Source: Mesostigma viride (lineage: Eukaryota; Streptophyta; Mesostigmatophyceae; Mesostigmatales; Mesostigmataceae). Taken from it: a DNA stretch of 64,000 bases. Below, piece after piece: positions 9,481-38,183 of this stretch; position 1 is the first letter of the stretch; each line of letters begins with the position of its first letter. Made by a program: the position numbers and the translations under genes. The notes beneath the pieces were generated by a model, which did no database searches, was not told where the DNA came from, and worked only from the letters and a program-made list of their open reading frames with translations. Location: positions 3,390,251-3,454,250 of the forward strand of contig RPFO01000080.1 in the NCBI GenBank assembly GCA_009746045.1, in the 5' to 3' direction.

Positions 9481-9539
9481 GCTGTTAGGAGTCAGCCAGC
9501 TGAGGGTCCTCAAGGTCAGGAGCCCATAGCTGAGGACCT

Positions 9540-14401: not shown

Positions 14402-15055
14402 CTCCAAGTTGGGAGGGGTCTCGCTGCAGCTAGACCCTTCCGTGAACGCAAAAAATAAACATCGAATAACTGGGAGGTCTTCCTGCAGCTAGACCCCTCA
14501 AATCATACAAAGATGAAACATTGAAGTTGGGAGGGGTCTAGCTGCAGCTAGACCCTTACAGGAATGCGAAAAAACAACCAATAATTGGGAGGGTCTACCT
14601 GCAGCTATACCCTTACATGCAATCAAAAAGGATGAAACCTTGGAAGTTGGGAGGGGTCTAGCTGCAGCTAGACCCTTACAGGAATGCGAAAAAACAACCA
14701 ATAATTGGGAGGGTCTACCTGCAGCTAGACCCTTACATGCAATCAAAAAGGATGAAACCTTGGAAGTTGGGAGGGGTCTAGCTGCAGCTAGACCCTTACA
14801 GGAATGCGAAAAAACAACCAATAATTGGGAGGGTCTACCTGCAGCTAGACCCTTACATGCAATCAAAAAGGATGAAACCTTGGAAGTTGGGTGGGGTCTA
14901 GCTGCAGCTAGACCCTTACAGGAATGCGAAAAAACAACCAATAATTGGGAGGGTCTACCTGCAGCTAGACCCTTACAAGCAATCAAAAAGGATGAAACCT
15001 TGGAAGTTGGGAGGGGTCTCTCTGCAGGTAGACCCTTCAACGAAGGCAAGAATTC
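14402..15055 (+). repeat. 60/120-bp palindromic satellite, left arm
   Basis: About eleven 60-bp units alternate between two types, giving a 120-bp higher-order period. Each unit holds a palindromic core, in the commonest form GGTCTAGCTGCAGCTAGACC. Spacers alternate between an AATGCGAAAAAACAACC type and an AATCAAAAAGGATGAAACC type. Open frames through it are a consequence of the 60-bp period. Confidence 0.93.
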
Positions 15056-15104
15056 TATCACAAATTCATGGGAGCAGATCTGAAGAGAGACCTAATCCAA
15101 TCAT

Positions 15105-16235: not shown

Positions 16236-17340
16236 TTATATACTGAGAATAATATAGTTTTAAAAAGGACATATAGTTACCAAACATAATATATAATAGC
16301 TATTAATCGTTGCCTATCCAAAGTTGCATGCAGTAAGTGCAACAGCCAAAATATGCCAACAAATCAGTTGATGGGAATTTCATAAAACTTACAATCGAAA
16401 TACAACAGACCCCAGTTAGAAGAACGAAGGAATATCTGCGTGACAGGGAATAACGCACCAGAGATGCTCGGTAAGCGTTGCTGACCGAAACACAACGGAA
16501 AAACACTGCCCGGTTGCTGGTAAGAGAATAAAAAGGCGTTGTCCATAATCGAAATACATAAACAAAGAGCGGGAGTCATACCTGCCTTGCGGGAAGTGAC
16601 GCAACGAATGTTATGGCCGAGCAAACTGGGCCTCCTTTCCCGTTGCTGACGGAAACACACCTCAAACAGACGGCCTCGAAGCATGGTAATGCATGCAACG
16701 ACGTTCAAAAGCGTCCCAAATCGAAATAAAACGAAACCGAGCGCAAAATACAGTGGAATATATGCATATCGGAATATATGCATGGCGGGGCATGATGTAT
16801 TGGAAAAGCCTGGTTGCCTTCGTATCCGCTCCTGACGTGAACAAATGGAAAGAGACCGCCTGGAAGCCAACATATGCAGGCGACACCGTTCCAAAGCCCA
16901 GAAAACAAAAATGCAGCTTACCCAGGCGTCATTCCGGGTGCCACCGTCTTACCCTGACAGTCGTCATCCCAGCAACCTCTCCAAGAGCTTACGGCCCCCA
17001 CAGTCCAGGAGCTTGCATGACCCATCATTACGTACCTAAGCATCGGTGATTTTAAAACCGCGCTCCTAAGCGCACAAAAAGAGAGCTAGCTTTCCCAACG
17101 GCATGACGAACTGAACACTTTCCTATCGACAGCCATACCGTAATCCCGTGGCCATTTGCAGCGTGATGCAATTAGGGTTGGGTAGGTAATAGGTAGGCTG
17201 CTGGTTTTTGTTAGAATTGTGATGTGCATCATTTTGTTGGGCCCGTGGGCCACAATCATCGCCGTCAACGGCTCAACGCTGCGCTTTGAGTTTTTACGTG
17301 TGAACCGTCAGCCCTCGAGTGTCGTCCAATCTTCTTGCTC

Positions 17341-17505
17341 GGTTACTAATAATGTCGTATTCCAAAGGAACACTAGTAATGAAAACGGTCGCAAAGCGTA
17401 CGGCTGTAAAAGGGTAGAAAACGGTAACGTGGCATCCTCGCAGTCGCCGGAAAGTGGAAGCGCGGCGCCGATGGCAATCGTCTCGACCAAATTTTTCGAA
17501 ACCGA
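17341..17505. other. Spacer of the foldback palindrome
   Basis: Unique sequence between the inner ends of the two arms, which meet near GTCGTCCAATCT on the left and AGATTGGACGAC on the right. No gene seen. Confidence 0.6.
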
Positions 17506-18189
17506 GAAAGCAGATTGGACGACACTTGAAGGCTGACGTCCACACGTGAAGACCCACCAGAGCGCAGCGTTGAGCCGTTGACGGCGATGTGGCCCACGGG
17601 CCCAGCAAAATAATGCACATCAATTGCATCGCGTCGCAAATGGCCGCTGGACAAATGGTATGGCTGTCGACAGCGACGTGCTCAGTTGGTCATGTTTGTT
17701 ACAGGAAAGCTAGTGGTATTCTTGTACGCTTAGAAGCGTGGTTTTAAAGTCACCGATGCTGAGGTACGTTATGATGGGTCATGGAAACTCCTGGACTGTG
17801 GGGGCCGTAAGCTCTGCTAGAGGTTGCTAGGATGACGACTGTCAGGGTAAGATGGTGGCACCCGGAATGACGCCTGGGTAAGCTCTGTTCGTGTTTGCTG
17901 GGCTTCGGAACAGTGGCGCATGCATATGTTGGCTTCCAGGCGGTCTCTTTCCATTTGTTCACGTCAGGAGCGGATACGGAGGCAACCAGGCTTTTCCAAT
18001 ACATCATGTCCCGCCATGCATGTATTCTACCGGCTTTAGCGCTCGGTTTCTTTTCATGTCGATCTGGGACGCTTTTGAACGTCGTTGCATTCATTACTAT
18101 GCTTTGAGGCCGTCTGTTTGAATTGTATTTCCGTCAGCCACGGGCAAGGAGGCCCAGTTTGCTCGGCCATAACATTCGTTGCGTCACTT

Positions 18190-19372
18190 CCCGCATGCCA
18201 CGCATCCACCACCACACCCACGCACACATGCCACCCATCCGACACACCCACGCACGCATGCCACCCATCCAACACACCCACGCACGCATGCCACCCATCC
18301 AACACACCCACGCACGCATGCCAGCCACCCACCACACCCACGCACGCATGCCAGCCACCCACCACACCCATGCACGCATGCCAGCCACCCACCACACCCA
18401 CGCACGTATGCCAGCCACCCACCACACCCACGCACACATCCACCACACCCACGCACGCAAGCCAGCCATCCACCACACCCACGCACGCAGGCCAGCCACC
18501 CACCACACCCACGCACGCATGCTACCCATCCAACACACCCACGCACGCATGCCAGCCCACCACCACACCCACGCACGCATGCCAGCCATCCACCACACCC
18601 ACGCACGCATGCCATGCATCCACCACCACACCCACGCACACAGGCCTGCCAGCCACCACACACACCCCACGCATGCATGCCAGCCCACCACCACACGCAC
18701 GCATGCCAGCCCACCACCACACCCACACAGGCATGCCACGCATCCACCACACCCACGCACGCATGCCAGCCACCCACCACACCCATGCACGCATCCACCA
18801 CACCCACGCACGCATGGCAGCCATCCACCACACCCACGCACGCAAGCATGCCACCCACCACACCCATGCACGCATGCCAGCCACCCGCGACACCCACGCA
18901 CGTATGCTAGCCCACCACCACACCCACACATGCATGCCAGCCATTCACCACACCCACGCACGCATGCCAGCCATCCACCACACCCACGCACGCATGCTAG
19001 CCCACCACCACATTCACGCACGCATGCCAGCCACCCACCACACCCACGCACGCATGCCAGCCACCCCAGACACCCACGCACGCAGGCCAGCCCACCACCA
19101 CATCCACGCGCGCATGCTAGCCCACCACCACATTCACGCACGCATGCCAGCCACCCACCACACCCACGCACGCAGGCCAGCCACCCATCACACCCATGCA
19201 CGCATGCCAGGCACCCACCACACCCACGCACGCATGCCACCCACCCACCACACCCACGCACGCATGCCAGCCACCCACCACACCCACGCACACATGCTAG
19301 CCCACCACCACACCCACGCACACATGCCCACCACACCCACGCATCCCACCCAGCACACCCACGCCAGTCCTT
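18190..19372 (-). repeat. 30-bp minisatellite, right arm
   Basis: Reverse-complement counterpart of the array at 15105-16235, with C/A-rich units (CACACCCACGCACGCATGCC core). Unit variants differ in order from the left array, so the arms have diverged by unit turnover rather than being a fresh duplication. Confidence 0.93.
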
Positions 19373-19439
19373 GCATGTTTGGCAAGGGTCTCTTTGCAGA
19401 GAGACGATGTTACTCATTTGTGATAAAGTTCTCGAATTC

Positions 19440-19945
19440 CTGTAAGGGTCTAGCTGCAGCTAGACCCCTCCCAACTTCCCAGGTTTCATCCTTTTTGATT
19501 GCATGTAAGGGTCTAGCTGCAGGTAGACCCTCCCAATTATTGGTTGTTTTTTCGCATTCTTGTAAGGGTCTAGCTGCAGCTAGACCCCTCCCAACTTCCC
19601 TGGTTTCATCCTTTTTGATTGCATGTAAGGGTCTAGCTGCAGGTAGACCCTCCCAATTATTGGTTGTTTTTTCGCATTCCTGTAAGGGTCTAGCTGCAGC
19701 TAGACCCCACCCAACTTCCAAGGTTTCATCCTTTTTGATTGCATGTAAGGGTCTAGCTGCAGGTAGACCCTCCCAATTATTGGTTGTTTTTTCGCATTCC
19801 TGTAAGGGTCTAGCTGCAGCTAGACCCCTCCCAACTTCAATGTTTCATCTTTGTATGATTTGAGGGGTCTAGTTGCAGGAAGACCTCCCACTTATTCGAT
19901 GTTTATTTTTTGCGTTCACGGAAGGGTCTAGCTGCAGCGAGACCC
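19440..19945 (-). repeat. 60/120-bp palindromic satellite, right arm
   Basis: Reverse-complement counterpart of 14402-15055, about 8 units, each with the GGTCTAGCTGCAG palindromic core. It ends with the same two variant units seen at the outer edge of the left array, showing that arm order is preserved. Confidence 0.92.
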
Positions 19946-22679: not shown

Positions 22680-22683
22680 GGCG

Positions 22684-23498
22684 GGCACGTAACCATCCAG
22701 GCGCTTGACTTAGCGCGCGCGTGAGACGCTGGGCCAACTGGTGGCCATCTGTTTAGGTGGAACCAGATTGTATAATCACTGGGTGGCGACAAGCTCGCTG
22801 GGGGAGGGGACCGACGCGTCACACATCATACGGGACGCGCAGACGCGCGAGGCCGATAGCCCATGGGATTCGGCCGAGGTGGTGGCTCAAACGTGTGAGC
22901 ACCTGGTCAACATTCTGATCCAAGAGGCGCGTGGTCACGCCGATCACTGGGTGATCACTACGCGTCCATGCCGGGCATTTGGTCGACCTTGGACACTCCG
23001 AGGTTGCAGAGCAGGCCAGGGGCGACTGGGCCGACGGTGACAGTCATCACCGGTCGGGACGTCTCCGACGAGGAGTTCCACGATCAGTTCGTGGACCGAC
23101 CAACGGGCATCATAGCCCGGTCGTCACAACAGATTGACGAGGGTGACGGCACAAACGAGGGATACTCGGCTCGGCGTAGAGCAGAGTTATTAAACATACC
23201 ATTTGAGCCGGAACACGATTTTGGTGAGATTGGTCGGGGGTCGCGGAACGACCGACGAGGTGGTGGTAGCCGGTGGGTCAGAAATCTTCAGTGGTATCGC
23301 CGTGGCAGTGCGGCCAGACTGCCGGTCAGCAGCAGACAGCAGCTGGGAGGCCAGGGGAAGCCTGGCAAGGGTGGGGCTGGGTCTGGGAAGAAGGGTGGAG
23401 CATGCTTTGTGTGTGGCAAGGAAGGTCACTGGCGTCGTGAGTGTCCTGACAGGAAGGCCAAGCCTGCTGGGGCGGGAGGCCAGTCTGGGCAGCAGTGA
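22684..23498 (+). pseudogene. gag: Family A gag, copy A2, C-terminal part with zinc knuckle
   Basis: Continues Gag after element D. Four extra bases at about 22708 (CGCG run) and two near 22968 shift the frame relative to A1. From 22968 the frame is open to a stop at 23496 and includes the CCHC knuckle CFVCGKEGHWRREC at about 23402-23443 and a tail GGQSGQQ. Here the knuckle is in frame with the Gly/Arg-rich segment, which fixes the true Gag C-terminus. Confidence 0.82.
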
Positions 23499-23528
23499 CT
23501 AGCTACATCATCCCCTGTAAATAGTCAA

Positions 23529-24840
23529 TCACCCCTTGGGGAAGGTGTGTTGGATGTACATAAGGATGGGGGTGTGCCCCTTGTGCAGCACCAAGGGTGT
23601 AAAGATGTTGTTCTTCCACTGGATTGCAATAACAATGCTGCAGCTGAATTCCCTATGCCTCATGCAGGTGCATGGTGGGTCTCCATGCAGCAGGTGCTGG
23701 CCTGGAGGGCCAAGGGACCTTGCTGGAAGGGCCTGGAGCGGTCCAGGGTGCAGGGCCTGGAATGGGGCGTCAGGATGGCCTGCAGGGAAGCCCTGGAACC
23801 TCAGGAGTGGATCATGTGTCCCCACACACGGTTCAGACGTCTCGCCAGGTCAGTACTGACAGAGTGCTGAGCTATGCTGAGGCTGGCCATAGATTGCATC
23901 ATATGTTTGGGCATTCTGGGCAGGCAGCAATGTTCGCTTGGAAGCTAGGTAGGGAGCCTTTGTGGGAGGCATGCCAGGCTGCTGCTGAGAACTGTGGTTG
24001 CAAGGAGAATGCTGTTCACCCACCTCAGTCCCATGCTAGGGAGCCTGCTAGGGAGCGTGGCGACATCCAGATGGATATCCAGCATATCAGGGGCTTGTAT
24101 ATATTGGTGGGGGTGGACAGGTTCAGCAGATACAGGCTGATAGACGTTCTGCCTGACCTATGCAGGAGCACCACTTGTTGTTGGGTATGAAGGCCCTGAT
24201 CCCAGGCTTTGGGGTGTGCAAGAGTGTGCATGGGCAGACATGCAGTTTGACTGTTTGCTCAAGCATCAGGACCAGCTGCCTTGTAAGCTGGTAGTAGTCC
24301 CCAGGGAGAGTCATGGGCAGCAAGGGGCTGTAGAGAGATCCATACGTGAAGTGAAGACAGTGGTGCTAGCAGCAGAGTCAGTGCCACTTGTGGCATCTGC
24401 CTTAGAGAGGGCAGCCTGGTGTATAAGGGGGTCAGAAGAGCAGCTGAACCACAGGGTTAACTATTACTTTGATGGTGTGGCTGTCTCTCCCCTGGCCCTG
24501 CAGTATAGCTTATTGCCTGAAAACGTGGTGCAGGCCAGTCTTAATTAGGAAGGCAGATAGGCTATTTGCCCACCAGCTGAGACGTAAGGACAAGAACTGG
24601 AATGTGCTGAGGCCTCAGGTGGGGCTGAAGGTCAGGATGTGGAAGGAACCATCTATTCCAGGCAAGCGGGGGAAGTGGCAGGATGGGGTTGTCACTCGTG
24701 TGGAAGAAGCTAACAGATCTTGCCTGGTGGCTTTGGAAAAGGATCCAAGGCACGTGTACAGGTTGTCCTGGGCTCATGTCAAGGAAAGAAGGCCACATGC
24801 AATCTGGCCTGCAGACGTCGGGCCAGGCCCTCCCAGCTAG
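23529..24840 (+). pseudogene. Family A integrase, copy A2
   Basis: Same architecture as in A1: a His/Cys N-terminal segment (HHMFGHSGQ ... CQAAAENCGC), the core starting MDIQHIRGLY, the HGQQGAVERSIREVK motif with the catalytic Glu, and the C-terminal RMWKEPSIPGKRGKWQDG segment ending near 24840. Frames change near 23870, 24155, 24230 and 24545, at positions where A2 has short filler-like indels relative to A1. No protease lies between Gag and integrase. Confidence 0.8.
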
Positions 24841-25075
24841 CTGGGTTGAGGAGCCAGGCCAGAGCCAGGCAGCAGCAGCTAACAATCCTCTGGTGGTGGA
24901 TGATGGTCTGTCCCTGCTGGAAGATGACAAGCAGGAGGAGGCTGCTGAAGCAACTGTCACAAGGCCAGAGGGGACGGGGCAGCCACCTAAGGCCCGGGGG
25001 CCTCTCATGGCGGACGTCATCCGAGCACTCATGCGCAGCAAACATGATCCCAAGGTATCCAAGCTCACGGGGTGG

Positions 25076-25518
25076 AGTTAGCCTCTAGTCGTGGACATAG
25101 GCTAAGTACCAGATAGCAATGTGCTATCTGGGGTTTCGCACGTGTAGGCTCGGTCAGAAGTCCCGGCTATATGTGATTCGGCAGGCTAGACTATTTGATA
25201 GCCGAGTCCTGGTGACGGACGCCAGTACCCAAGTAGGATTGGCGGTACGGCGTCGCCAGTACCCACTCGGGACTGACATTGAGGTGTCGGACGTTGGACT
25301 AAGGTCCTGAGAGTCTAGCAGTGGCGTCGCGCCACTCAGGCTGCACCACAGAGCCCAACGGCCACTGTCGGCTGCTCCAGACGTGGCGGCCAGGCAGAGC
25401 GTTGCTTGTCGACAATGCTAAATGCCCTTGTGCACGTTGGGTGCGGGGCTTGTGATTTATTGTAATAAACACATGCGTTAGGCCATTGAGCATTGAGAGG
25501 TCCACTCGTTTATTAACT
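25076..25518 (+). repeat. Element B 5' LTR
   Basis: 443 bp. Starts AGTTAGCCTCTAG and ends TTTATTAACT, so the terminal inverted repeat is AGTTA/TAACT rather than the usual TG/CA. An AATAAA polyadenylation-type hexamer is at 25464-25469. It differs from the 3' LTR by one indel (a T-run at about 25460) and one substitution (GCTTGTCG versus GCTGGTCG). Confidence 0.93.
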
Positions 25519-25549
25519 TGAATTAAAGTCGTTTACCATAGACAAAATC

Positions 25550-28500
25550 ATGGGAGATCCTATTATGCCAGGCCTGAAATTCAAAAAGAAGCGGATAGAT
25601 GATGCTGGCTGGCAGACGGTGCCAACAGTAGAGGAGAAGGCTGCGGCCAAGAAAATTAAAAAAGCAAGAAGGGCGCAGGCGGAGCAGGAACAGCTAGTGG
25701 CTAGGCAGCTAGCGACAGCGATGGCTCAGCAAAGCGTCAAGGCAGCCGCCCAAGAGCGGCAGCTGGCAGCCCTGCAAAAACAGGTAACCTCCTTGGCCGA
25801 ACAGGCCGAAAAATCTGTTTTTTCTAGCCCAGCTAGCTCGCAAAAATCCGTAAGCAGTATGCGGTCCCCCAGCCCTCAGGCAAGCCCCGCTGACCTCCCC
25901 GCTAAGGCACCGTCCCAACCTCCTCAGGAGGAGGGCGGAATAGCCAAAAGCGGTGGAGAACAAGCGGGGGTGCCGATCGTCCCCTCATCCGCTCAGAAAG
26001 CGGGGGGGTACGAGAGGAAGCTGAAGAGGGACGCATACATGTTCAAAATGCGGACCAAGAAGGTCCCAGGACCCGTCATCGGCAGCATTCAGCTGTCTGA
26101 TGACGAGGTCACCCTCTCCCCAGGGGTTTCTGATGGGGAGATTGAGATGAATCCACTCAATCAGGCGGTCGAACAGGCCGCCGCCCAGTTTGTAGAGGCA
26201 CGCCGTCTTGCACAGCAAGAGCGGGACCGCAAAAAGACAGCGGCCCGCAACATGACTGCTGAAAAGCAGCTGGCTGCCATGCAAGCTGGAGAGGTGCTCC
26301 ATGAGCGCCTCTTCAATGAGCTGGTTGTTGCACAGGGGGACGAGGGGGTCACGCTAACAGCGGACCAACTCAATTCCCTCCTGTTGCAGCTGACCAAGCT
26401 GCAGGAGAAGATGCAGGCAACAGAAACGCCTGCACTCCCTGCACATACCCTCCCCACCCCTGGCACTGATTTGAGCCAAAGGGTGGTTGGAGGGGCCGTG
26501 TCACCAAGGGTGCTGCAGGGCAAGAGCCAGGGCACTGTCCCCAGCTCCCCCAGCAAACCCCCAAGTGACCCGGATGCCCAGGAGCTCCACCGCCGCAAGG
26601 TGGTGGAGAATAAACTCCTAGAGGCCATGATAGCCCGTGAGGGCGGCCTGGCAGCCCAAGCAGCAGCGCTGCAGCAGCTTGGCCAGGCCAAGGGTTTTCC
26701 TACCAGCAGTGGAGTAAGGCAAGGGGAACAAGACCCTGCGCCTGCAGCTGGAACACCACCAGCCACTGCACTAGCACAGCAAGCTGGAACACAACCACCT
26801 TCTGCGGAGGCCCAGCAGACTGCACCCACACCAGGGCAGTCAGATAAGAGCAAGGCGGTGGCAAAAGGGACCCCAGTGGACCCAACCCCACCCACCCTTA
26901 AGGGGGACGTCCAAGAGCTGCTTGCCATACTCACGGCACAGCTCAAGACCATGGCCACCAACCCCATGGACGACCTGTCGCGCACCCAGCTGGATGGCCT
27001 CCTGGCCAGTATCTCCCAGCTGGAAAGGGGCAGGGCGAACATGGAGGAGGCTGATCTTCAACAAGCAGTCAAGACTTTCTTGGCTGAAAAGAAGGACCCG
27101 GTCAAAGGTACGTTTAACCCAAAACAAAAAGAATCTAAAATAGAAATCCCTGGCTTACCTGAGGGTTACACCCAGGAACAGGCCAAGGAATTTTTGTTTA
27201 GCCTGAACTACTGTTTTGAGTCTCTGAATGTCCAGAACTGGTTCAGTGCCTTGCGTGCATCCACCACCATCCATAGGTCAGCCCCAGCCATTAAAACCTT
27301 GGTCCAGATTTACCAAGAAAAGGCTGGGACACCTAACCTAGCAATTGCATTGTGGCCAGCCTTCATGGATGAGCTTAAGCACTTGCTGGTGGATAGGACA
27401 CAGTTTGAATCCATCCGTGGTTTCAACTGGCTTAATGCTTACCAGGTCAACAAGCAAGACTATGCCACTGATTGCAAGAATTATAGGTTGGCTGTAGAAA
27501 AGGACCCTGATCTCAGGGGTCTGCCTGCTAGCTACCTGCTGTATTCATGGTTGTCAAATGCTAACCTGGACAAAGCTGTGTACGCCACTGTGGTTGCAGG
27601 TCTCAAACCTCTGTGGAACGATTTCCGGGCGGGGATGAACCATATCCAAGACTGCCTGACTCCCCTGGCTATAGGTGCTCCGTCTGCAACCCCAACCCCC
27701 AAGGTCCAACAGACCCAAGGGAAGGGGCAAGGAAAAAAGCGCCAGCTAGGGGGGCAGCAGGGCGGCCAGTCCAAGAAGGCCAAGGGCAACCAGCCCCAAG
27801 GCCAGCCGGGACAGCCTGCTCAGCTCAAGCCAAACCAGTGGAGGCGGCCCACCCCCCCCACACCTGCCCCACCCACCCCTGCACCCACTGCTCAGCCCCC
27901 CCATGCAGGTCCCAAGAACAAGTGCACCCGGTGTGGCACCAAGGGACACCAGCGGGCGGACTGCAAGTGGAACCCCGCAGTAGGCGACGTGGACCTCTGC
28001 TTCGGTTGCAAGCACCCCCGCCATCTGCCCCCCGGCACGTGGTGCGACCGGCAGGACAAGGCTCCAAAAGGATGTACGTCCTCACAGCACGCCTATGTGG
28101 ATTTATATGATCTCATTATCATTGGGGATAAAGACAAGGGACTGCTAGATTTTGAGGCAGCTCAGAAAATCTCCTCCACGTATAATGTGATACTGCCCTA
28201 CCTCAAAGCTCTTACCCCAGCTGCTGTTGACACAGTAGACTTAAGGGAACTAGCAACCCAGCTCCACATAGCCATGGGTCATGAGGTGGTGGCAGAAAAG
28301 ATTGCCAGAAGAGCAGGAGGTTCACGACTCAGGAATGCTGTCAGGTTGGCTAGAAAACACTGCCAGCAATGTCAGTTCCATGGCCCAAAACCTCCCAAAT
28401 GGCATGTCGCAACACCACCCACCCAAAGGGGAATAATTGTGGGTGATGTCGTGCATATCGATGGTGAACAATATCTGATCCTAAAAGACACATGGTCCAG

Positions 28501-28621
28501 ATTCACTGTCATGGAACCCCTACCTGGAATGGCTAAAGAGCAACTGCGTGCAGCACTTGTGATAGCATTGCCCAGATTCTACCCAGTTGACACTATACTG
28601 CTTGATCAACAGTTTAGCTGA
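25550..28621 (+). CDS. gag-int: Element B Gag-integrase polyprotein (1,023 aa)
   Basis: ATG at 25550 is 32 bp after the 5' LTR. Residues about 25-90 are Lys/Ala/Gln-rich and probably coiled coil. Residues about 200-550 are helical and Gln/Pro-rich, then a capsid-like segment follows. A CCHC zinc knuckle starts at C792 (CTRCGTKGHQRADC), with a second Cys/His cluster at about 820-840. An HHCC integrase finger follows (H906, H911, C938, C941) and a core with Asp near 971 (VVHIDGEQY) and D1019 (LLDQQF). Translation stops at 28619; the catalytic Glu is in the next frame. There is no stop and no protease between Gag and integrase. Confidence 0.88.
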   Translation: MGDPIMPGLKFKKKRIDDAGWQTVPTVEEKAAAKKIKKARRAQAEQEQLVARQLATAMAQQSVKAAAQERQLAALQKQVTSLAEQAEKSVFSSPASSQKSVSSMRSPSPQASPADLPAKAPSQPPQEEGGIAKSGGEQAGVPIVPSSAQKAGGYERKLKRDAYMFKMRTKKVPGPVIGSIQLSDDEVTLSPGVSDGEIEMNPLNQAVEQAAAQFVEARRLAQQERDRKKTAARNMTAEKQLAAMQAGEVLHERLFNELVVAQGDEGVTLTADQLNSLLLQLTKLQEKMQATETPALPAHTLPTPGTDLSQRVVGGAVSPRVLQGKSQGTVPSSPSKPPSDPDAQELHRRKVVENKLLEAMIAREGGLAAQAAALQQLGQAKGFPTSSGVRQGEQDPAPAAGTPPATALAQQAGTQPPSAEAQQTAPTPGQSDKSKAVAKGTPVDPTPPTLKGDVQELLAILTAQLKTMATNPMDDLSRTQLDGLLASISQLERGRANMEEADLQQAVKTFLAEKKDPVKGTFNPKQKESKIEIPGLPEGYTQEQAKEFLFSLNYCFESLNVQNWFSALRASTTIHRSAPAIKTLVQIYQEKAGTPNLAIALWPAFMDELKHLLVDRTQFESIRGFNWLNAYQVNKQDYATDCKNYRLAVEKDPDLRGLPASYLLYSWLSNANLDKAVYATVVAGLKPLWNDFRAGMNHIQDCLTPLAIGAPSATPTPKVQQTQGKGQGKKRQLGGQQGGQSKKAKGNQPQGQPGQPAQLKPNQWRRPTPPTPAPPTPAPTAQPPHAGPKNKCTRCGTKGHQRADCKWNPAVGDVDLCFGCKHPRHLPPGTWCDRQDKAPKGCTSSQHAYVDLYDLIIIGDKDKGLLDFEAAQKISSTYNVILPYLKALTPAAVDTVDLRELATQLHIAMGHEVVAEKIARRAGGSRLRNAVRLARKHCQQCQFHGPKPPKWHVATPPTQRGIIVGDVVHIDGEQYLILKDTWSRFTVMEPLPGMAKEQLRAALVIALPRFYPVDTILLDQQFS

Positions 28622-30469
28622 GTGTGAAGGATGGGATGCTAATATTGAGATTGCTGGATTGCAAGATCATGAAGGGCAGGGTGTCATTGAAAGAACCATC
28701 AGGTCAGTCAAAACTTTAGTGGCGAAATCCACTGACCTGAAAGCCACATCTGGAAGCTATGCTGACAGAGCACTGTGGTGCAGTGAAATCTGTGCTACAC
28801 TTAACCTTAGACCTGTGTTGCATGCACCATGGGGGGAAATCCTTCCCATTGGCTTACAGGCAGGTGTGTACCCTCCAGAGGTATTAGCTCTGTATAACAC
28901 AGTAAGGGCTAAAGTGGCTGATAAGCTAGCTGAAAAGGACATAACACACCCCAGAACAGTATTCCAACTGGGTGAACAAGTCCTATATTTCAAAGAAACC
29001 AAACATGGCAAGACAGGCATGTGGTATGGTCCGTGCACTGTTCTAAGAATGACCAAAAAAGGAAAAAATATGGATATTCGAAGTTTGGAAACAGGGAGAA
29101 AACACAGGGTGAGCAGTCATAGAGTTAAGAAGTATTTCCCTCCTTTGGCAGACGTGCCAGGGGAAGAGTCCTTGAACATGGATTCCCTCCTTAACTCTGG
29201 TGAGCAAGCAGAACCACCCAGCATTCCAACACCAGGAGCTGATGATGGCACTACCACACCCTCTGTCATTCCTCCACCCCTCAGTGAGGTACGTGTCACC
29301 CCACAACCTGGTGTAAGTCCCTCTGGGCAGAGTTCAACCAGGCATGAGGTACCAGAGCAAAACAAAGGCAATCCAGCTGAGTTCAAATCCAAGCTAGAAA
29401 AAGCCCTGGCAGCTCTGCATAAGGCTCACAAGAGCAAGGCTAAACAAGCCTCAGGTTTGGCCAAGGTCTCTGCTGTGTGCTCCGATTATAGCCAGGAATC
29501 CTGCATCCTAGCTGTGGACACTCAGGCACAGGTCAGTGTGATCAGTGCACAAGCCATTCCTGGTCTGCAACTTGCACCCTCACCATGGACACAGGTGCAA
29601 GATTTTTCAGGCAAAACAACCTTAGATGTGTTGGGTCAAGTAATGATCCCCATACTTGGCATCCAGACACCTTTCCAGGTAGTGGAAGGGTACATGGGCA
29701 ATGCTTTGTTGGGAGAACCCTTTATCTCTTACCCAGGTGTCACCATCACTGCTAGCCAGCTGCGTGTGACTGGGGTAGGAGCCATTCCCTTGGATCACTA
29801 CAAGATTCCATTGTCCCAACTGGTTCATGGATTAGATGCCTATATCAAGGCCATTAACATCAAATATGGGCCAGGTGAAATCCCTGACCTAGAGAAAAAG
29901 GTGCACAATCAAAGGCCACACCCGCAGTCCTTTGGGGTTGGAAAGTGGGACTTAGCCATGCACTCTCCTCACAACTATGATGCTCTAATCCAACAATGCA
30001 AAACACAAAAAGGGTTTCAAAAATGGATCCAAGCCATTAGGCACCAAGCCCGCGAAGAGTGGGTGCTGCCAAACCCTAAGCATCCTGACTATAAGCCACC
30101 TGTCACTCCTGTCTGGGAAATTCCAGAAGGTGCCAAAAAGTTGAGACTCAAGTTTGTGCTAAAACACAAGGCACAGCCAGTAGGCTCACCTATATATCAT
30201 GCTAGGCCATGTGTGACAGAATTAAAAGGCATGTCAAAACTGTCCAAGGGTGAACTCTACACTCCTGGGCTGCAGCAAACATCCCTCAGGATACTGCTCT
30301 CTGTCTTCCTCCACCATCTCAATGCTGGCCAAGATTATGCCTGCAAAGCTACTGATATCAAAAGGGCTTTCCTTAGAGGGGACCCTGATAAAGCGCAAGA
30401 TGTGTGGAAGGGTCAGGTCTATGTGGTTCCCACCCCTGCTGCATGGGCACATGATATTGATGAGCCATA
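28622..30469 (+). CDS. pol: Element B second ORF, part 1: integrase end, protease, RT start
   Basis: A +1 frame relative to the first ORF. It begins inside integrase with HEGQGVIERTIRSVK (catalytic Glu), then the integrase C-terminal domain (GEQVLYFKETKHGKTGMWYG) to about 29160 and a Ser/Pro-rich linker. A retropepsin-like domain lies at about 29500-29810 (AVDTQAQVSVIS, DFSGK, IPILG, VVEGYMGNALLGEPF). RT fingers start at about 30130 (LRLKFVLKHK), with ATDIKRAFLRGD as motif A. The CACTA element interrupts it after Pro codon 30465-30467. Translation probably needs frameshifting, or the frame change is a mutation. Confidence 0.88.
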
Positions 30470-30484
30470 CACTAGGAAGTCGGA

Positions 30485-30875
30485 AAAAATTCGTCCTGAG
30501 ATCTCTTGAGATTCTCCTGAGTTTTTTTTTGACAAATCTTGAGAAATCCTGAGAAATCCTGAGATGTCCTGAGAATATCTTGAGATTGTCCTGAGATTAA
30601 TCCTGAGTTTTCCTGAGATTGTCCTGAGATAATCCTGATATTTCGTCTTCACAAAATCTGGTAAGTGCACACCTCGGGTCCTGAGATTCTGGTGAAAAAC
30701 TCAGGTCTTGAGATTTTGACTTTGTAGTGAAAATCTCAGGACAAAATCTCAGGACAATCTCAGGACAAAATCTCAGGACAATCTCAGGACAAAAAAAACG
30801 AGTAGAATCTCAAGAAAATCTCAGGACAAAAAAACGAGTAGAATCTCAAGAAAATCAAGAACATGCACAGGCGAA
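30485..30875. repeat. CACTA-2 left subterminal repeats
   Basis: Many short copies of TCCTGAGA in both orientations (for example TCTCAGGACAAAATCTCAGG), spaced 10-20 bp. A similar block at 35255-35535 lies inside the other end. They are probably transposase-binding sites by analogy with En/Spm subterminal repeats. Confidence 0.88.
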
Positions 30876-31435
30876 TTCTCCAGCCATTCTGGGACAAAAA
30901 AATGGTGTTATCAGGGACCGTCAGAAATACGACAATACAAGATGATTACAACAGGGGCATGACTCACAATCAGTGCATTTATTACATTGATAAATATTAT
31001 TTAAAAAATCTTTTATTCATAGGCAAAAAATAAATCACAACAAAAAGAGGATTGTTTCTTCATCGTTTGGCAGATCTTGTAGATCATTTGGTTCTTCATA
31101 TACTCTGCCAAACTGTGCTTCGTTGCACATTTACCTGCACGCATAAACCAGGAAGGGGGAAAAAAGGCATTAAACAGGACCATGATTAGAAACGCTGGGC
31201 TGCAGCATGTGCACATGTACACCTAACCAGACCAAAGGCATAGCAAACAACATCATGCTCGGCATAAAAAAAGATACTTCTGACTGGTACAAAACATTGA
31301 AAGGGTGACCCAAGTGAAAGCCTAGCACCGCCATTATTGAGATGTGCAAGACCAAGAAACCACGACATTGCATATGACCGATGCATTGAAAAAGGGAAAA
31401 CACGTTTATTAACTGTGAAGCTCCAGGGTAACTAG
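30876..31435. other. CACTA-2 interior, no gene seen
   Basis: AT-rich sequence without an open frame I can interpret. Begins where the subterminal repeats end and runs to the AAGGAAGCAAGGG minisatellite. Confidence 0.4.
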
Positions 31436-32045
31436 ACTAAATTTCTTCAGGGCAAGGGACTAATTGAATTCAGCAAGCAAGCGTACATGCGCGCAAGGAC
31501 GAGAGTGGCTAAATAAGGAAGCAAGGGCCTAACAAAGGAAGCAAGGGACTGATTAGATTCAGCAAGCAAGCAATTGCAAGCATGCAAGGAAGAGGGGCTA
31601 ACAAAGGAAGCAAGGGCCTAACAAAGGAATCAGGGGACTGATTCCATTCAGCAAGTGGTCAAGCATGCAGGGAAGGAACGGCCTAACCAAGTAGGCAAGG
31701 TCATATCAAAGGAAGCAAGGCATTAATTAAATTCAGCAAGCATGCGAGGAAGAGTGGCTTACAAAGGAAGCATGGGACTAAGAAAGGAAGCAAGGGACTA
31801 ATTACATTCAGGAAGCACGCATGCAAGGAAGCAAGGGAATAAAGCAAGGAACTAATCAAATTCAGCAAGCGGCTAAACAACCAAGCAAGGGCCTAATCAA
31901 GGAAGAAAGCAACCACGCAAAGAAGCAAGCAAGCACGCAAAGACGGAAACAAGCATGCAAGGAAGCAAGGGGTTTATCGAACTCAGCAAGCAAGCATGCA
32001 AGGAAGCAAGGAGCAAGTGAGGGACCAAGGGACTAATCAACTTTA
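31436..32045 (+). repeat. Degenerate AAGGAAGCAAGG minisatellite in CACTA-2
   Basis: Irregular units built from AAGGAAGCAAGGGACTAAT, ATTCAGCAAGCAAGC and CATGCAAGGAAG blocks, with no fixed period. Purine-rich on the plus strand. Confidence 0.8.
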
Positions 32046-33907
32046 TGACACTTACCACGCAGAAGGGACAACCTCATGACCGCGGAGAAGATAACATTCC
32101 GTCCCTCCTGTTGCGATTGCAAAGGGGAGAAAGAATAGTAGTGATGTAAGGAATGAATTCCAGTGCAAAATTAGGAAAATACCTTCAATAACAAAGCTAG
32201 TAAGTAGGCAAGGTAATTAAAAAGTAGGTAGCAAACTGATGACAACATGCACATACTCACGCATGGACCAACCAAGTTAGTATCTAATCTACTATGTGGC
32301 TTATGAGGAAGCACCATGAAACATTTGACCTTACTGGCTTCATCAGAACATGTCTAGATGCTTTTCCTTTGCAAAGATAGTCGCAATTGACGCTTGGGGC
32401 TTGCATGGGATTCAGGTCTGCATGGACGTGCTTTGACAACAAACGGGCATGTACGCACAAAAATGCCCAAGGACGGTACTTCATGATGGTCATCTTCATG
32501 AACTTGACCACGCATGTAAGAGGACAAGAAATCAAGTATTCAGAGTTCATGCTATACTAAGAAACCAGCTTTTGCTCAGAATGCCGCTTTTGCGGTCTAT
32601 GGGCCTTCCAATGCAACCTGCCAAGCAATTCTCATAAGTATCCTTGCTCAGCTACGCAGTTGCTCATTTTCCCGGCTCCATTCCTCTTCGATCACAGCCT
32701 GTCCATGACGGCCTTGTAGGTTTTGGATAGCTCCAGAATCTCGCTCTGTTTATTCTCCGTTACTTATGTCACTCACATGTCGTCGCTACTAGAACCGCTT
32801 CTAGTGCGGTTCTCGCTGCCACCCCTGCTGCCACACCTACAGCGCTTGTTATTCGGTGGTTGCATTCATTGGTTACGTATGGAAATCGGTTGCCCCATCG
32901 CTCGAGCTAGCGTGTATGTGCCCTCACTGCCCGCTAGCCCCAGCACTGACTTGACTGCGAACAACGGCTAGGGCTACGTCAGACGCGTTTTTTTGAATTT
33001 GCGCAAAAAAAAAGATTGCGACTAGGTCACATCCGTAGCCAGCGGCAGGCGGAATGTCTCGAGTGATTCCAGCCAAGCGATCTTCCGTATTGTCATGACA
33101 TCTTACCTTTCCACTGGTTACTACTTGTCTCAAAGCCTTTTAGAACGGTCGGAGCCGCAAACTGCCGATAAATTTACAGGTACAGTAACTAGTATTCACC
33201 AATGAAAGCCACAGGCATTTAAAAAACCGCCGTCCTGCCAGACCCTAGAAAACGCTTGGTCCTGCCTTTGCCGGACAACCATTGGAGCAGGTTATGAAGT
33301 GCGACAACGATTTCTGATTGTTGGCTGACAGACTGACAGCCGACAATTATTAACGCAAAGTCACTAAAGCAATTAGGCAGTGAGAACATTCTACAAAAGA
33401 GCTCTTAGTTCGGGCTTTATATAAGTAGTACCTGCCTGTTAAAAATTGGAACAAGGATACGGTTCCGGCATCCGTTTATTCCGAAGCCGGTACGGGCAAG
33501 GCTAGGGAACCGGCGTGGGAATAAACTGAACTGAACATAACTGAAATAAAGGCCGTTATGGTGCCGTGAAATAGCCGCATGACGACAGTGCCGTTCCAAA
33601 CTTTCAACTTCGCGCCCTACCTCTCTTAACCGTTACCTGGTAGACCGTTGGTCCAACGAGCGAAAAATTTAGAAAGGTTGCGATTAGGCAACGCGACCTT
33701 GCACCTAGCCGCACCCATGAACGCCTTCAGCAGCCATGTTAGGCAACACAACCCTGCACCTAGCCGCACCATTCCATAAACGCCTTCATCAGCCATGTTA
33801 GGCCGGAATAGACACGGCATTTCCACTTTGGGTCTCGCACTAGTCAAGTCACTTGCTCAGATAGAAAGCAATGGATCACGCAAAACCAGGAGCCACGCCT
33901 CCCCACG
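32046..33907. other. CACTA-2 interior, no recognised gene
   Basis: Short frames only, none with a recognisable domain. At about 33650-33800 a partial direct repeat (TTAGGCAACRCRACCYTGCACC with CCGCACC) occurs twice. The transposase catalytic part expected here is not visible, so it was deleted or is too decayed to see. Confidence 0.35.
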
Positions 33908-34966
33908 ATGATTACGGCGGCGGTGTGTGGCATGGAGCCTGCTTGTGACGAGCATGACTCAATCCACATCAATGGCAGCAATTACCGAACTGCAGTCGCC
34001 GACCTTCGACAAACTGTTCGCCATCGCAACTCAGGAGTAATGGTTTATGGTAAAGAGGGGGTTAGGTACGGCCGCATCACACACATTCTGCATAGTTTCC
34101 TCCGTGCCCCGACGGAAGGATGGAGTAGGCAAGTTCTTTTAAAGGTCGCTCTGTTTGATGCCGGTTCTGTGAAAGAGCTCCCTTTAGAGGGATTGACGCT
34201 TATACCTTTAGGGGAGCGAGCGCCCAAGCAGGATGCTTTAGTCCTTCCCGGGAGTGTATGTTCAGTTGGTTTTGTAGTTGATCCAGAGTATGCACCTGAG
34301 ATAGCCATCGTGCACTGTAAATTGCCGTGGCAAATGGTAAAGGAAACGTGTAGTGCAGCCCAGCATGTATTATCCCGTGCTGCAGGTGCTCAGCTGAGAA
34401 CCACAGACGTGTATGCTGATATGAACCTGCAGCGCAAGGTGACACTGTGTGTTAAGCGAAGAGACATGACAACACGAGGTCGTTCACAAGGTAATCGCAC
34501 TGCACCCATAGATCCACAAGCAACCACTGCACGCATGGCTGCGGAGCCACAAGCAACCACTGCACCTAATCGCTCACGTGGCAAGCGCACTGTTGGCACA
34601 TTGGTAGAGCCACAAGCAACCACTGCACCAAGTCGCTCACGTGGCAAGCGCACTGTTGGCACATTGGTAGAGCCACAAGCAACCACTGCACCAAGCCGCT
34701 CGCGTGGCAAGCGCACTGCGGACACATTGGTAGAAACACACTCAGCCGCTGCACCAAACCGCTCGCGTGGCAAGAGCATTGCTGACAAGTCCATGGCAGC
34801 GGCTAGTGGCAGCGCATCAAGCCCTGATGACATTGCTAGTGATTTGTCGCTGAGCAGCGACGGTGAGGCATGCATTCCCACACAAAGGAGAAGTGAGAGG
34901 CAACGTGTGGTAGTAAATTATGCGGACTCTGACAGTGCTGCATACACTGATGAGGAGTGGGATTGA
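33908..34966 (+). CDS. CACTA-2 ORF, resembles C-terminal domain of CACTA transposase
   Basis: 352 codons from ATG 33908 to a TGA. Residues about 20-155 (HINGSNYRTAV, VRYGRITHILHSF, VLLKVALFDAGSV, PGSVCSVGFVVDP) recall the DUF4216-like C-terminal domain of plant TNP2-type transposases, which has a similar run of strands and a final 'QVFYVxDP'. Then come a Thr/Arg-rich region with about four imperfect 20-residue repeats (EPQATTAPSRSRGKR, about 34540-34790), a Ser-rich acidic stretch and an acidic C-terminus (TDEEWD). The DDE catalytic part is absent. The family match is by eye and tentative; it could be a separate accessory protein. Confidence 0.6.
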   Translation: MITAAVCGMEPACDEHDSIHINGSNYRTAVADLRQTVRHRNSGVMVYGKEGVRYGRITHILHSFLRAPTEGWSRQVLLKVALFDAGSVKELPLEGLTLIPLGERAPKQDALVLPGSVCSVGFVVDPEYAPEIAIVHCKLPWQMVKETCSAAQHVLSRAAGAQLRTTDVYADMNLQRKVTLCVKRRDMTTRGRSQGNRTAPIDPQATTARMAAEPQATTAPNRSRGKRTVGTLVEPQATTAPSRSRGKRTVGTLVEPQATTAPSRSRGKRTADTLVETHSAAAPNRSRGKSIADKSMAAASGSASSPDDIASDLSLSSDGEACIPTQRRSERQRVVVNYADSDSAAYTDEEWD

Positions 34967-35114
34967 TTATATTCCTAATATAATGTAATGATGGATTGAT
35001 GTAACTTTTTGTGTGCTTGTCACACTTATATTTATTTATTTCCAATGAACATGTGTGTCAACTGCATCATTTCTGCATCCACATATAATGCATAAGTGTC
35101 CTGTCTTCATGCAC

Positions 35115-35245
35115 TTGAGAGTTCTCAAGTGTCATGCTCAGTGTCCTGATTTTCCTGATTTTTTGTGCCATGTAAGTGTCCTGATTTTCCTGATTTTTTG
35201 TGCCATGCTAAGTGTCCTGATTTTCCTGATTTTTTTCTGATTCAG
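35115..35245 (+). repeat. Three tandem copies of a GTGTCCTGATTTTCCTGA unit
   Basis: Three near-identical copies, each GTGTCCTGATTTTCCTGATT followed by a T-run and GTGCCATG-type spacer. They lie just inside the right subterminal repeat block and share the CCTGA core with it, so they may be expanded subterminal repeats. Confidence 0.75.
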
Positions 35246-35546
35246 CGGGAAAATCTCAAGATCTTGAGATTTTTTGTGTTGTTTCGACATTTTTCTCAGG
35301 ATCTCAGGATTTTCTCAGGATTCTCAGTGTTTCTCAGTGTTTCGCGAGACGCATCTCAGGCACTTCTCAGGATTCTCAGGAGGAAGTCCTGATATAATAT
35401 CAGGATTCCTGAGAAAATCTCAGTTTTTCTCAGGATTTCTCAGGACATCTTGAGAAAAAAATCAGGATATCTCAGGAAATCCTGAGTTCATCTCAGGAAA
35501 TCTCAGGATTCCTGAGAAAAATCTCAGAACCCGACTTCCTAGTGTA

Positions 35547-36642
35547 TCTACTCCTAAATCTAGGGGTGGAAGGTTTGCAAAGTGCTCCCACTATCTTCAG
35601 AAAATCAGCAGAAGAGGTGTTCAAGAAACTTAATGCCACTTATGATGATCTGGACCCTTGTCTCTTTGCTGTGCCCACACCCTCTGGCTTGCTCCTGTTT
35701 GTGTGGCATGGTGATGACCAACTGATTTGTGGACCAAGAGCTGAAGTTGACAAGTTCATTCAGCAGGTTCAGCAGTCATATGAGATTGGAAAGCAGACAG
35801 AGCTGGGGCCAGAACCCCTACAGTTCTGTGGCATAATGCTAGCACTGGAAGAGCAACAGGAACAGTGGGTGTGTACTCTATCCCCGCCTGCCCAGTACTT
35901 AGAAGAATGCCTAGAGCTGCTTGATATTCCGTGCATTCCTGCTCACATGTGTGCTACTGTCAAAGGAAAATTAGGGTGGCTGAGTGCTATCTGTGCACCT
36001 CATCTGGCAGTGGTCAGCAGGATTGATGACACAGTATTACAAACCATGAAACCTAAGGATCTCCAGAAGCTACTACAGGCTGGACCTTCCCTTGTCATTC
36101 ATCCACTCAACCTCATGGAAGATATTCACATTAACTGTCTGATGGACAGCTCCATGGAGAGTAGGGTAATAACAAAAATGGATGCCAGGGAGGCTGGGGT
36201 GTTCTTCCTTACCAACAAGGGAGACTATATGTCCATGGTGTCGTGGTACAGCAGATTGCATCGCAGAAAAGCTGTTGGCAGTAACTCTGCTGAGTGCCGT
36301 GCTGTGGTGTCTGCTGTGCAGCATGCTCGATCCCTTCAGCACATACTAACCTGGTTGCAAACTCAGGCTGGCAGCAAGGCTGCTGTGCATGCTCACTTAC
36401 ACACTGACAGTCAGTCAGTCATTAGTTTCCTTAACAAGAAATCTGTGACTGCTGCTGTGCATACTGATCTGGACTGGGTGATTTTGAAACAGGAAACAAG
36501 CTATTTTTCCAGCTGGCAGCATCTGCCAGACGAGGAGAACCTGGCTGACGCATTGACCAAGATTCCGTCATTAGCAGCAACCCAGTACCAGCTTCTGTGT
36601 GATGCAATGAATCCCTATCTGTCTAGTCAGACAAATGGATGA
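35547..36642 (+). CDS. pol: Element B second ORF, part 2: RT catalytic half and RNase H
   Basis: Continues in frame from 30469 once CACTA-2 is removed. It begins LLLNLGVEGLQSAPTIFRK, equivalent to the copia 'YGLKQAPRAWY' motif, then the RT active site as FVWHGDDQLICGP, a G-D-D box where copia normally has Y-V-D-D. RNase H follows, with CLMDSSMESR, SNSAECRAVVSAVQHA, HTDSQSVISFL and LPDEENLADALTK, the typical copia-type end. Stop TGA at 36640. The reading is intact, consistent with recent activity. Confidence 0.9.
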
Positions 36643-36970
36643 TGAAATAGGGCACTCCAGACTAATGGTGCAGACTATGGTCTTTCCCAGCTGGTGGCAA
36701 CTTGGCAACAAACATAATAATTTCTTGATGTGCCCCCTGGTTTTTCCATAGCCACTCATCACTCCACTGACTTGTACAAACAGGGGATCCTAGGTCCAGA
36801 AACCTCAAAGACACTGTCAGATTTAAAGGCAATGGGGTCTGTGGGCGCTTTAATTCACAACTTCCCTTGTGGTCTGATATGAGTTTTCCTGTACCAATGT
36901 CTTATTCATGATATTGCCAAGTAACCTGAAAAAAAAAAAAGGAATAAAAACTGGAGGTGCAGCACTGATG

Positions 36971-37012
<42 letters not shown>

Positions 37013-37028
37013 AAAAGAATAAAACTGG
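36643..37028 (+). other. Element B 3' untranslated region with poly(A) tract
   Basis: A non-coding stretch between the pol stop and the 3' LTR. A 38-base A run (36974-37011) is followed by CAAAAGAATAAAACTGG, the presumed polypurine tract next to the LTR. A near-duplicate GGAATAAAAACTGGAG occurs at about 36941-36956 after another A-run. Confidence 0.75.
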
Positions 37029-37472
37029 AGTTAGCCTCTAGTCGTGGACATAGGCTAAGTACCAGATAGCAATGTGCTATCTGGGGTTTCGCACGTGTAG
37101 GCTCGGTCAGAAGTCCCGGCTATATGTGATTCGGCAGGCTAGACTATTTGATAGCCGAGTCCTGGTGACGGACGCCAGTACCCAAGTAGGATTGGCGGTA
37201 CGGCGTCGCCAGTACCCACTCGGGACTGACATTGAGGTGTCGGACGTTGGACTAAGGTCCTGAGAGTCTAGCAGTGGCGTCGCGCCACTCAGGCTGCACC
37301 ACAGAGCCCAACGGCCACTGTCGGCTGCTCCAGACGTGGCGGCCAGGCAGAGCGTTGCTGGTCGACAATGCTAAATGCCCTTGTGCACGTTGGGTGCGGG
37401 GCTTGTGATTTATTTGTAATAAACACATGCGTTAGGCCATTGAGCATTGAGAGGTCCACTCGTTTATTAACT
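37029..37472 (+). repeat. Element B 3' LTR
   Basis: 444 bp, AGTTAGCC...TTTATTAACT, with AATAAA at 37418-37423. Followed immediately by the duplicated target GGTGG and the A2 protease region. Confidence 0.93.
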
Positions 37473-38183
37473 GGTGGGGGTCGTGCTGGGCAGCTACAAT
37501 GGAGGTAGATACCAACTCACAGGTGTCTGTCATCAGGGAAGAGGATGCTGTAGGCTTACAGATGTCCCATCCCAGTTGCCTTGCTGTGTCTGATTTCTCA
37601 GGAAAGGTGTCCATGAAGATACTTGGGGAAGTGAGTGTGCCTATCTTAGGCCGGGGTGCCCACCACGTTCTGTGTGGTAGAGGGCTATAAGGGGCCTGCC
37701 ATTCTGGGACAGAACTTCTTGTGCATGCCAGGGGTTACTTTGACCTCTGATGAGTTGGCACTAGAAGGCAGGGGCAGCCTCCCCCTTGAAAGATATCACT
37801 ATTCCCAGGGTCTTGCAGTGGCGGTGAAGGCTGTTAGGAGTCAGCCAGCTGAGGGTCCTCAAGGTCAGGAGCCCATAGCTGAGGACCTGTTGATAATCCC
37901 AACCACCTTTGATCCAAGGCAGTTAGGGGTAAACAGGTACCAGATAGCTGCTCACAGTCCTATTCCCTGGCGCCAGCTAGTCGAGATGATGCAAAGCCCC
38001 AAGATGGCTAAGGCATGGACTCTTGGCTTTGTTGCTTCTGGGCATGAGTGGATAGTTTCCAACTGTGCAGAACCTGTGGATGAGCTGCCAGAAGTTCACC
38101 AGCTGCTCAGATTGATGTTTGTCCTCAAGCTCAAGGAGGTAGATGGTGTCCAGGTGCCACATGTCAGACCAGTTGTAACCTAA
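37473..38183 (+). mobile_element. Copia-like family A, copy A2, segment 3 (protease and RT start)
   Basis: Resumes A2 after element B. It matches A1 9115-9830 with a handful of differences, then stops at about 38183 (after CCAGTTGTAACC), where A1 continues CGAGTATCATGG. The rest of A2 and its 3' LTR are not found in the window, so the junction is either a deletion or the edge of another insertion. Confidence 0.88.
37499..38183 (+). pseudogene. Family A protease and RT N-terminus, copy A2
   Basis: ATG at 37499 starts MEVDTNSQVSVIREED, the same altered retropepsin motif as A1, then DFSGK and VPILGRG. A frame change near 37656 leads into VVEGYKGPAILGQNF, PGVTLTSDEL and the RT linker down to LRLMFVLKLKEVDGVQV. 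Truncated before the RT catalytic motifs. The segment follows A2 integrase once element B is removed, confirming integrase-protease-RT order in family A. Confidence 0.75.

Follow-up and report, generated by a model that had tools for sequence, protein, structure and literature searches.

A divergent copia-type retrotransposon lineage of Mesostigma viride with a retropepsin-like domain between integrase and reverse transcriptase

In a stretch of 64,000 nucleotides of the streptophyte Mesostigma viride (assembly GCA_009746045.1, contig RPFO01000080.1, positions 3,390,251 to 3,454,250 of the forward strand; hereafter the window, meaning this whole stretch), a long terminal repeat (LTR) retrotransposon was found whose coding parts follow one another as Gag, CCHC zinc knuckle, HHCC/DDE integrase, retropepsin-like protease domain (PR), copia-type reverse transcriptase (RT) and RNase H (table 1). 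The order of the domains in pol is a main character by which LTR retroelements are classed, namely gag-PR-IN-RT-RH versus gag-PR-RT-RH-IN (IN, integrase; RH, RNase H). The order seen here, integrase-PR-RT-RNase H, recurs in four element families of the same genome, designated A (to which the window copy belongs), B, C and M. These probably represent a divergent copia-type lineage, likely centred on Mesostigma viride, in which a predicted dimeric aspartic protease with a DTQ or DTN active site would cut the Gag-Pol precursor.

The window copy holds one retropepsin-like stretch only, and it lies between integrase and RT. By comparison, in all three canonical copia elements of the same genome that were read (R1-R3), PR is ahead of integrase. 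The permuted pol order put forward in a preliminary description of this DNA is therefore borne out, both by the position of this stretch after integrase and by its recurrence in the four families. The naming of a putative integrase C-terminal SH3/GPF-like region is based on a GPC motif read by eye, and the ADALTK string marks a copia-type RNase H C-terminal end.

The genome search covered 440 Mb in 2243 contigs, all counts of places being lower bounds, and in each family the complete order was established from a single copy or a small number of copies. With the 647-amino-acid open reading frame (ORF) of the window as query, at least 68 places were scored out of 7620 candidates, 49 of which belong to family A (93-100% identity, window included) and 19 to family B (68%). 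A single open frame of 2018 amino acids is listed at seven of the 49 family-A places; in family-A copies other than that of the window the integrase core is in one frame, and at L002 the region from the end of Gag to RNase H forms a natural single frame of 1486 amino acids, with no letter changed. Likewise, integrase core, PR, RT and RNase H of family B are contained in a natural 1063-amino-acid frame (L047, 6811-9999), and the whole series from integrase to RNase H of family C in a natural frame of 1190 amino acids (L053); a PR-RT scrap of element C returned at least 150 scored genome places of 5028 candidates, at 99-100% identity. Family M was pieced together, integrase and PR coming from L048 (listed frame of 1224 amino acids, PR with VDTQASVSII, integrase with D for the last E) and RT-RNase H from a protein, P0001 (EukProt Mesvir1), and is consistent with the common order. 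P0001 starts in the C-terminal half of PR and continues into RT and RNase H; it was the single match among 7989 scored candidates when the PR-RT-RNase H part of family B was searched against proteins (E 2.6e-128, 39% identity), as well as the sole match among 7995 candidates with profile A5, and all 70 of its scored places in the genome (8090 candidates) are at 100%. The 647-amino-acid ORF matched none of 7997 protein candidates at E up to 0.001. An assembly artefact, or the chance recombination of two elements, might be suspected from the nested and broken state of the window copy, and has next to no probability: the same order is found in four families, whose scored places number at least 49 in A, 19 in B, 70 in M and at least 150 in C, and PR is joined to RT in a protein from an independent database (P0001). 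As far as the order is concerned, this explanation is refuted.

The alignment of PR across the four families has 27 invariant columns, which include, on the active-site strand, D, T, V, S and I, on the presumed flap strand DF.G, on an inner strand LG and in the second motif LG. This second, hydrophobic-hydrophobic-Gly motif (LLG or ILG) is found in all four families with its glycine 65 ungapped columns past the aspartate, a distance that suits a retropepsin. The third active-site residue is Q in A, B and M and N in C, and never G, so that the D(T/S)G triplet is absent; the clan AA retropepsin template is DTG/ILG (PMC2642776). Within family A, DTQAQVSVI is present in 30 of 30 fetched loci, 27 of which encode an identical 122-amino-acid PR protein. 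Of the Pfam models, gag-asp_proteas is the best or only PR match in every family (A 17.6, C 15.1, B 12.9 and M 12.7 bits; E 0.0058 for A), the matches spanning profile positions 9-13 to 89-90 of 92, and it appeared in none of 10 shuffles of the PR piece of A; family M gives an additional, weaker SPT16 match, and the C halves of the window copies, taken one by one and containing a frame break, gave no match. The canonical copia proteases, scanned for R2 and R3, match instead Pol_BBD (62.3 and 43.2 bits, respectively). The permuted PRs do not match this model, the E limit being 10 for A, B and M and 1 for C. A composite retropepsin signature, written once the sequence had been viewed, has a single occurrence in pol and none in 20,000 shuffles of pol; a looser one likewise has a single occurrence in pol, and is present in 23 of 20,000 shuffles. 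Between A and B, amino acid identity is 77% in PR, 80% in the integrase core, 81% in RT and 57% in the linker, and the ratios of non-synonymous to synonymous substitution rates (dN/dS) are 0.11, 0.15, 0.08 and 0.16, respectively. Judged from these sequence comparisons, the conservation of PR is close to that of the integrase core, amino acid identity being more telling than dN/dS because dS is near saturation.

As to the affiliation of the RT, RVT_2 is the sole RT model matched (22.7-26.5 bits in B and 23.8 in C, in open frames), and no gypsy RT model gave a match in the Pfam scans of the permuted elements. Canonical copia elements of the same genome reach 177.9 bits with RVT_2 versus 22.7-26.5 for the permuted ones, which indicates a deeply diverged lineage, and it is therefore called copia-type rather than a canonical member of Ty1/copia. 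A midpoint-rooted tree was made of eight RTs, one from each of the four families together with those of canonical R1-R3 and of one gypsy element of this genome. In it, the permuted RTs fall on one side of a branch with support 100/99, the canonical rows being supported at 93/93. The suggestion of a distinct lineage, for which an RT phylogeny with relatives from the same genome had been proposed as a check, is thus upheld within this eight-row, midpoint-rooted tree: four families share the order and their RTs are separated from canonical copia by the 100/99 branch. It is very improbable that the element is instead of Ty3/gypsy type, a relative of Gmr1 that would have kept its PR-RT-RNase H block while integrase moved to the front. 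Such a derivation would account for a PR that adjoins RT as in gypsy and matches gag-asp_proteas rather than the copia PR model, and in Gmr1, which belongs to the gypsy elements, the integrase has been displaced (PMC2774666); however, RVT_2 and no gypsy model recognizes the RT, the RNase H is C-terminal with a copia-like ADALTK end, and the gypsy RT forms a long branch by itself, a weak point with one gypsy row and a midpoint root. For the RNase H ORF, a beta-lactamase assignment (best NCBIfam score 22 bits, cut-offs 100-525) was rejected as noise. A PHROGs search gave no match.

A number of observations weigh against the favoured interpretation of the middle domain and of its lineage. Every gag-asp_proteas score of PR is below the curated cut-off of 28.2, so that the profile check proposed earlier has a divided outcome, the model being the best or only PR match and yet reaching 17.6 bits in A. 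When solved structures were searched, the window PR and the profiles A3, A6 and A9 alike drew chance matches only and no retropepsin. By hhalign, the four permuted PRs show no likeness to the three canonical copia PRs, which argues against a copia PR that had simply moved, on the basis of 4 and 3 sequences, and their match to a gypsy PR scrap is in register and insignificant. The AlphaFold models of the PR piece, built with 5 and then 6 rows, have a predicted local distance difference test (pLDDT) of 37.4 and 37.7, values too low to be of use, so that the fold and activity of PR are inferred. dN/dS discriminates little, because synonymous change between A and B approaches or has reached saturation (dS 1.2 in PR) and the linker, at only 57% identity, has a ratio of 0.16. 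RVT_2 scores of the permuted RTs are all below the cut-off of 31.6, and P0001, which supplies the RT of family M, has no Pfam match up to an E of 10. Among the integrases, those of A, B and M match no Pfam integrase model and that of C matches only rve at 14-15 bits (cut-off 32.6). The RT tree has 8 rows with long branches (C 1.09, gypsy 2.33); 65 of the 70 scored family-M places list only a 797-amino-acid frame, which begins in the linker; and, while the lineage is likely confined to or centred on Mesostigma viride, confinement is a weak claim, because no more than some 8000 candidates were scored in each protein search. Lastly, the glycine of DTG/DSG is missing in all four families, which could mean a dead protease. 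The retropepsin of the preliminary description is thus borne out in part: the domain has the Asp-Thr pair as well as the second hydrophobic-Gly motif, but the glycine of the triplet is replaced in the four families, Pfam scores stay below cut-off and no solved retropepsin is matched.

The missing glycine leads to an explanation that we regard as unlikely, though well short of negligible, in which a retropepsin fold that has lost catalysis serves as an RT dimerization or spacer domain, processing being left to a host protease or hardly taking place. It would agree with the replacement of the active-site glycine in four of four families and with an upstream protease having been found in none of A, B and C; it fits less well with an invariant Asp-Thr pair and with a PR conserved between A and B about like the integrase core. 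Furthermore, two of the three canonical copia elements read (L050 and L052) have VLDSAASSHM, that is DSA for DSG, although many places share equal RVT_2 scores, and the position of the glycine is thus not fixed among the copia proteases of this genome either.

A second possibility, which we consider quite improbable, is that a canonical protease stands ahead of integrase, diverged past recognition, the middle domain being an extra. Such an upstream retropepsin would have spoken against the preliminary description, and none was found in A, B or C. In the window copy, D[ST]G is absent from both the Gag/integrase ORF and the pol ORF at 28566-30506; it is absent in any frame upstream of integrase in family B; the three family-A loci checked contain one off-frame DSG only; and the stretch upstream of integrase in family C has no Pfam match. 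Moreover, the gap from the knuckle to HHCC is about 100 residues in A, including a second CxxC...H, against about 260 in canonical R3, where it holds the protease. It is in family M that a relic of an upstream protease is least excluded, a further point to be set against the favoured reading: there, LDTGAVGPM is present upstream of integrase in the same frame, its aspartate being the 18th residue past a stop codon (L048). We take this string to be a chance occurrence, because no protease model matched the stretch and because the next hydrophobic-Gly motifs follow 24 and 35 residues past the aspartate as opposed to 65 in the middle domain.

The borders of the element are given in table 1. The span 25550-36642, at first taken for the element, is correct for the coding part, the whole with its LTRs being 25076-37472. 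The near-identity of the LTRs is confirmed, 445 of 447 aligned columns being identical (three of those are shared flanking bases), and, with 49 of the 68 scored genome places belonging to the same family at 93-100% identity, the insertion of the element may rightly be called recent. The LTR termini at 25076 and 25518 are AG...CT, the usual ones being TG...CA. Among eight LTRs fetched from four other family-A copies, the 5' end base is identical in all eight and the 3' end is reached in seven; as to the flanks, one of these copies has a matching 5-bp CTCTC, one has unequal flanks, one continues into a second internal region and one has its 3' flank beyond the LTR match. The focal element is nested in the related element C, and the uninterrupted target is present within the same window. 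The 5' part of the host copy matches zf-CCHC at 28.7 bits and rve at 15 bits, the latter below cut-off.

Table 1. Features of the focal element and of its host element (window coordinates; a dot in the strand column stands for no strand)
Feature	Position	Strand	Evidence or remark
LTR retrotransposon, family A	25076-37472 (LTR to LTR)	+	coding span 25550-36642
Left target-site duplication GGTGG, 5 bp	25071-25075	.	empty site ~9122-9126 in other host-element copy
5' LTR, 443 bp	25076-25518	+	ends AGTTA...TAACT
Gag region, ATG at 25550	25550-27922	+	ORF
CCHC zinc knuckle CTRCGTKGHQRADC	27923-27964	+	Pfam zf-CCHC 12.5-15.7 bits, cut-off 20.8
Integrase HHCC zinc finger	28265-28372	+	motif; two H and two C invariant across four families
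Integrase DDE core (D in GDVVHI, D in LLDQQF, E in VIERTI)	28445-28715	+	frame broken near 28.6 kb
Integrase C-terminal SH3/GPF-like region (putative)	28959-29141	+	sequence reading by eye; Pfam: no match
Retropepsin-like domain, active-site string VDTQAQVSVI, second motif LLGEPF	29490-29792	+	Pfam gag-asp_proteas
RT, first part (DIKRAFL)	30129-30469	+	Pfam RVT_2 14.1 bits
5,075-bp insert splitting RT	30470-35544	.	CACTA-type inverted ends, TA either side
RT, second part (FVWHGDD)	35545-35841	+	RVT_2 11.7-11.8 bits
RNase H, copia-type C-terminal end (ADALTK)	36118-36561	+	alignment; Pfam RNase H: no match
3' LTR, 444 bp	37029-37472	+	
Right target-site duplication GGTGG	37473-37477	.	
Host element C copy 2, 5' part (Gag knuckle, integrase, linker)	22680-25075	+	98.3% to 6756-9124
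Host element C copy 2, 3' part (protease-like MEVDTNSQVSVI, RT start)	37473-38180	+	98.9% to 9120-9833
Element C copy 1	6756-9833	+	without focal insertion = empty site

The window copy is no longer able to transpose by itself. Its integrase frame is broken near 28.6 kb (ORFs 25517-28621 and 28566-30509) and its RT is split by the insert, which has 14-bp inverted ends (CACTAGGAAGTCGG/CCGACTTCCTAGTG); in both other copies inspected, L008 and L019, the insert site is uninterrupted. On these grounds the terms 'complete' and 'intact RT' of the preliminary description do not apply to this copy, while RNase H, described as intact along with RT, is indeed an open frame. The insert is DNA-transposon-like, with many short CTCAGGA-type repeats near its ends and a 384-amino-acid ORF (33812-34966) that contains 63-bp internal repeats and has no NCBIfam match.

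Other copies differ in the way their frames are arranged. The C-run before the zinc knuckle (27896-27902) was compared in 30 family-A loci (L001-L030): it is C7 in 18, C6 in nine and unmatched in three. None of the nine C6 loci contains the long frame of 1486 amino acids inside the locus itself, the frame being 1335 in eight and 1116 in one; since four C7 loci also have 1335 amino acids, a second frame difference must exist in family A. The variation in run length may reflect slippage, decay or sequencing error, which are indistinguishable here. In family B (L031, reverse strand, first 1,500 bases) the zinc-knuckle frame differs from the pol frame, and Gag and Pol of that copy would therefore need a frameshift. 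Element C (window 7351-7600 and 23400-23520; L053 158) has one in-frame stop between the zinc-knuckle frame of Gag and the start of the 1190-amino-acid pol frame, which resembles a putative arrangement for stop-codon readthrough. The integrase of family M reads MIDRT (L048, 820-846) where A, B and C have E (VIERT, AVERS); this may be an Asp that replaces the last catalytic Glu, or the integrase may be dead. One more relative (L043, 4191-4514) consists of a truncated scrap of integrase and was left out when the domains were compared.

The window contains other repeats besides. A decayed gypsy element (2078-4345) has a protease string, LLVDSGAASSFV, at about 2078 and an RNase H-like ORF at 3737-4345. 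On the minus strand, 56788-60757 holds ORFs resembling those of a non-LTR retrotransposon, with RT (AYLDD), zinc-finger motifs and a PHD-finger-like stretch (CEVCRSGHRGHHMLVCDACNSGWHLQC), as read by eye. A near-identical ORF occurs twice on opposite strands (12034-12801 and 49832-50680) with an endonuclease-like reading (RPDIVVLDFEGG...), and is perhaps the tail of a long interspersed nuclear element. Long coding-like minisatellites, built of THACQPPTTP and VGRGLAAARPL units and open in several frames on both strands, occupy 14500-19860.

If the middle domain is indeed the protease of this copia-type lineage, the element would probably follow the standard route of LTR retrotransposition: transcription would run from LTR to LTR and Gag-Pol would then assemble into particles, in which the protease would dimerize and free the integrase that precedes it and the RT-RNase H part that follows. 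The RNA would be copied by RT, and insertion of the DNA by the DDE integrase would produce a duplication of 5 bp. Owing to its position between integrase and RT, PR would be synthesized solely as part of Pol and may remain attached to RT as in the foamy virus PR-RT, the foamy virus protease being a canonical one. As to the origin of the order, the copia protease ahead of integrase would have been lost, and a gag-asp_proteas-like domain placed in the integrase-RT linker before the split of the four families. Whether this amounts to a fourth pol order, that of a basal streptophyte copia RT lineage that lost its own protease, carries a foreign retropepsin with a glycine-free DTQ/DTN site in the integrase-RT linker and lives in hundreds of copies beside canonical copia, is a proposal that we put forward tentatively, with slightly less than even confidence. 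A lineage in which four families have the order integrase-PR-RT-RNase H would demonstrate that the protease can move independently of the other domains, and the retention of DTQ/DTN over deep divergence makes it testable whether the third residue of the aspartic protease site must be glycine. Annotation that expects PR first, or a DTG, may miss or misfile such elements.

The open-access literature on pol domain order, on the protease motif and on Mesostigma, taken at the level of the titles and abstract openings listed, offered no copia element with PR between integrase and RT, nor is such an order mentioned in the available parts of PMC12477816 and PMC12440569. With Ty1/copia (Pseudoviridae, gag-PR-IN-RT-RH) the elements described here share the LTRs, a CCHC Gag, an HHCC/DDE integrase upstream of RT, a C-terminal RNase H and a 5-bp target-site duplication, and probably an RVT_2-type RT, whose scores with that model are below cut-off; they differ in that the protease-like domain comes after integrase, is gag-asp_proteas-like rather than Pol_BBD-like and has DTQ/DTN, and in that the RT of family A has HGDD for HVDD, and GVEGLQSAP for the SLYGIKQAP of canonical R2. 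Gmr1, a Ty3/gypsy lineage with a copia-like integrase order in pol, sets a precedent for permuted pol domains within an LTR family, although it is a gypsy-type element with a moved integrase (PMC2774666), whereas here a copia-type RT is accompanied by a displaced protease. The same source describes, in the diatom copia elements CoDi-A, a putative chromodomain after integrase, that is, an extra domain at the integrase C-terminus and in the same location of pol, but the portion available mentions no moved protease (PMC2774666). Finally, foamy viruses have the retroviral order and no relation of descent with them is implied, but their mature protein keeps PR fused to RT (PMC8402755) and provides a mechanistic model for a PR-RT unit.

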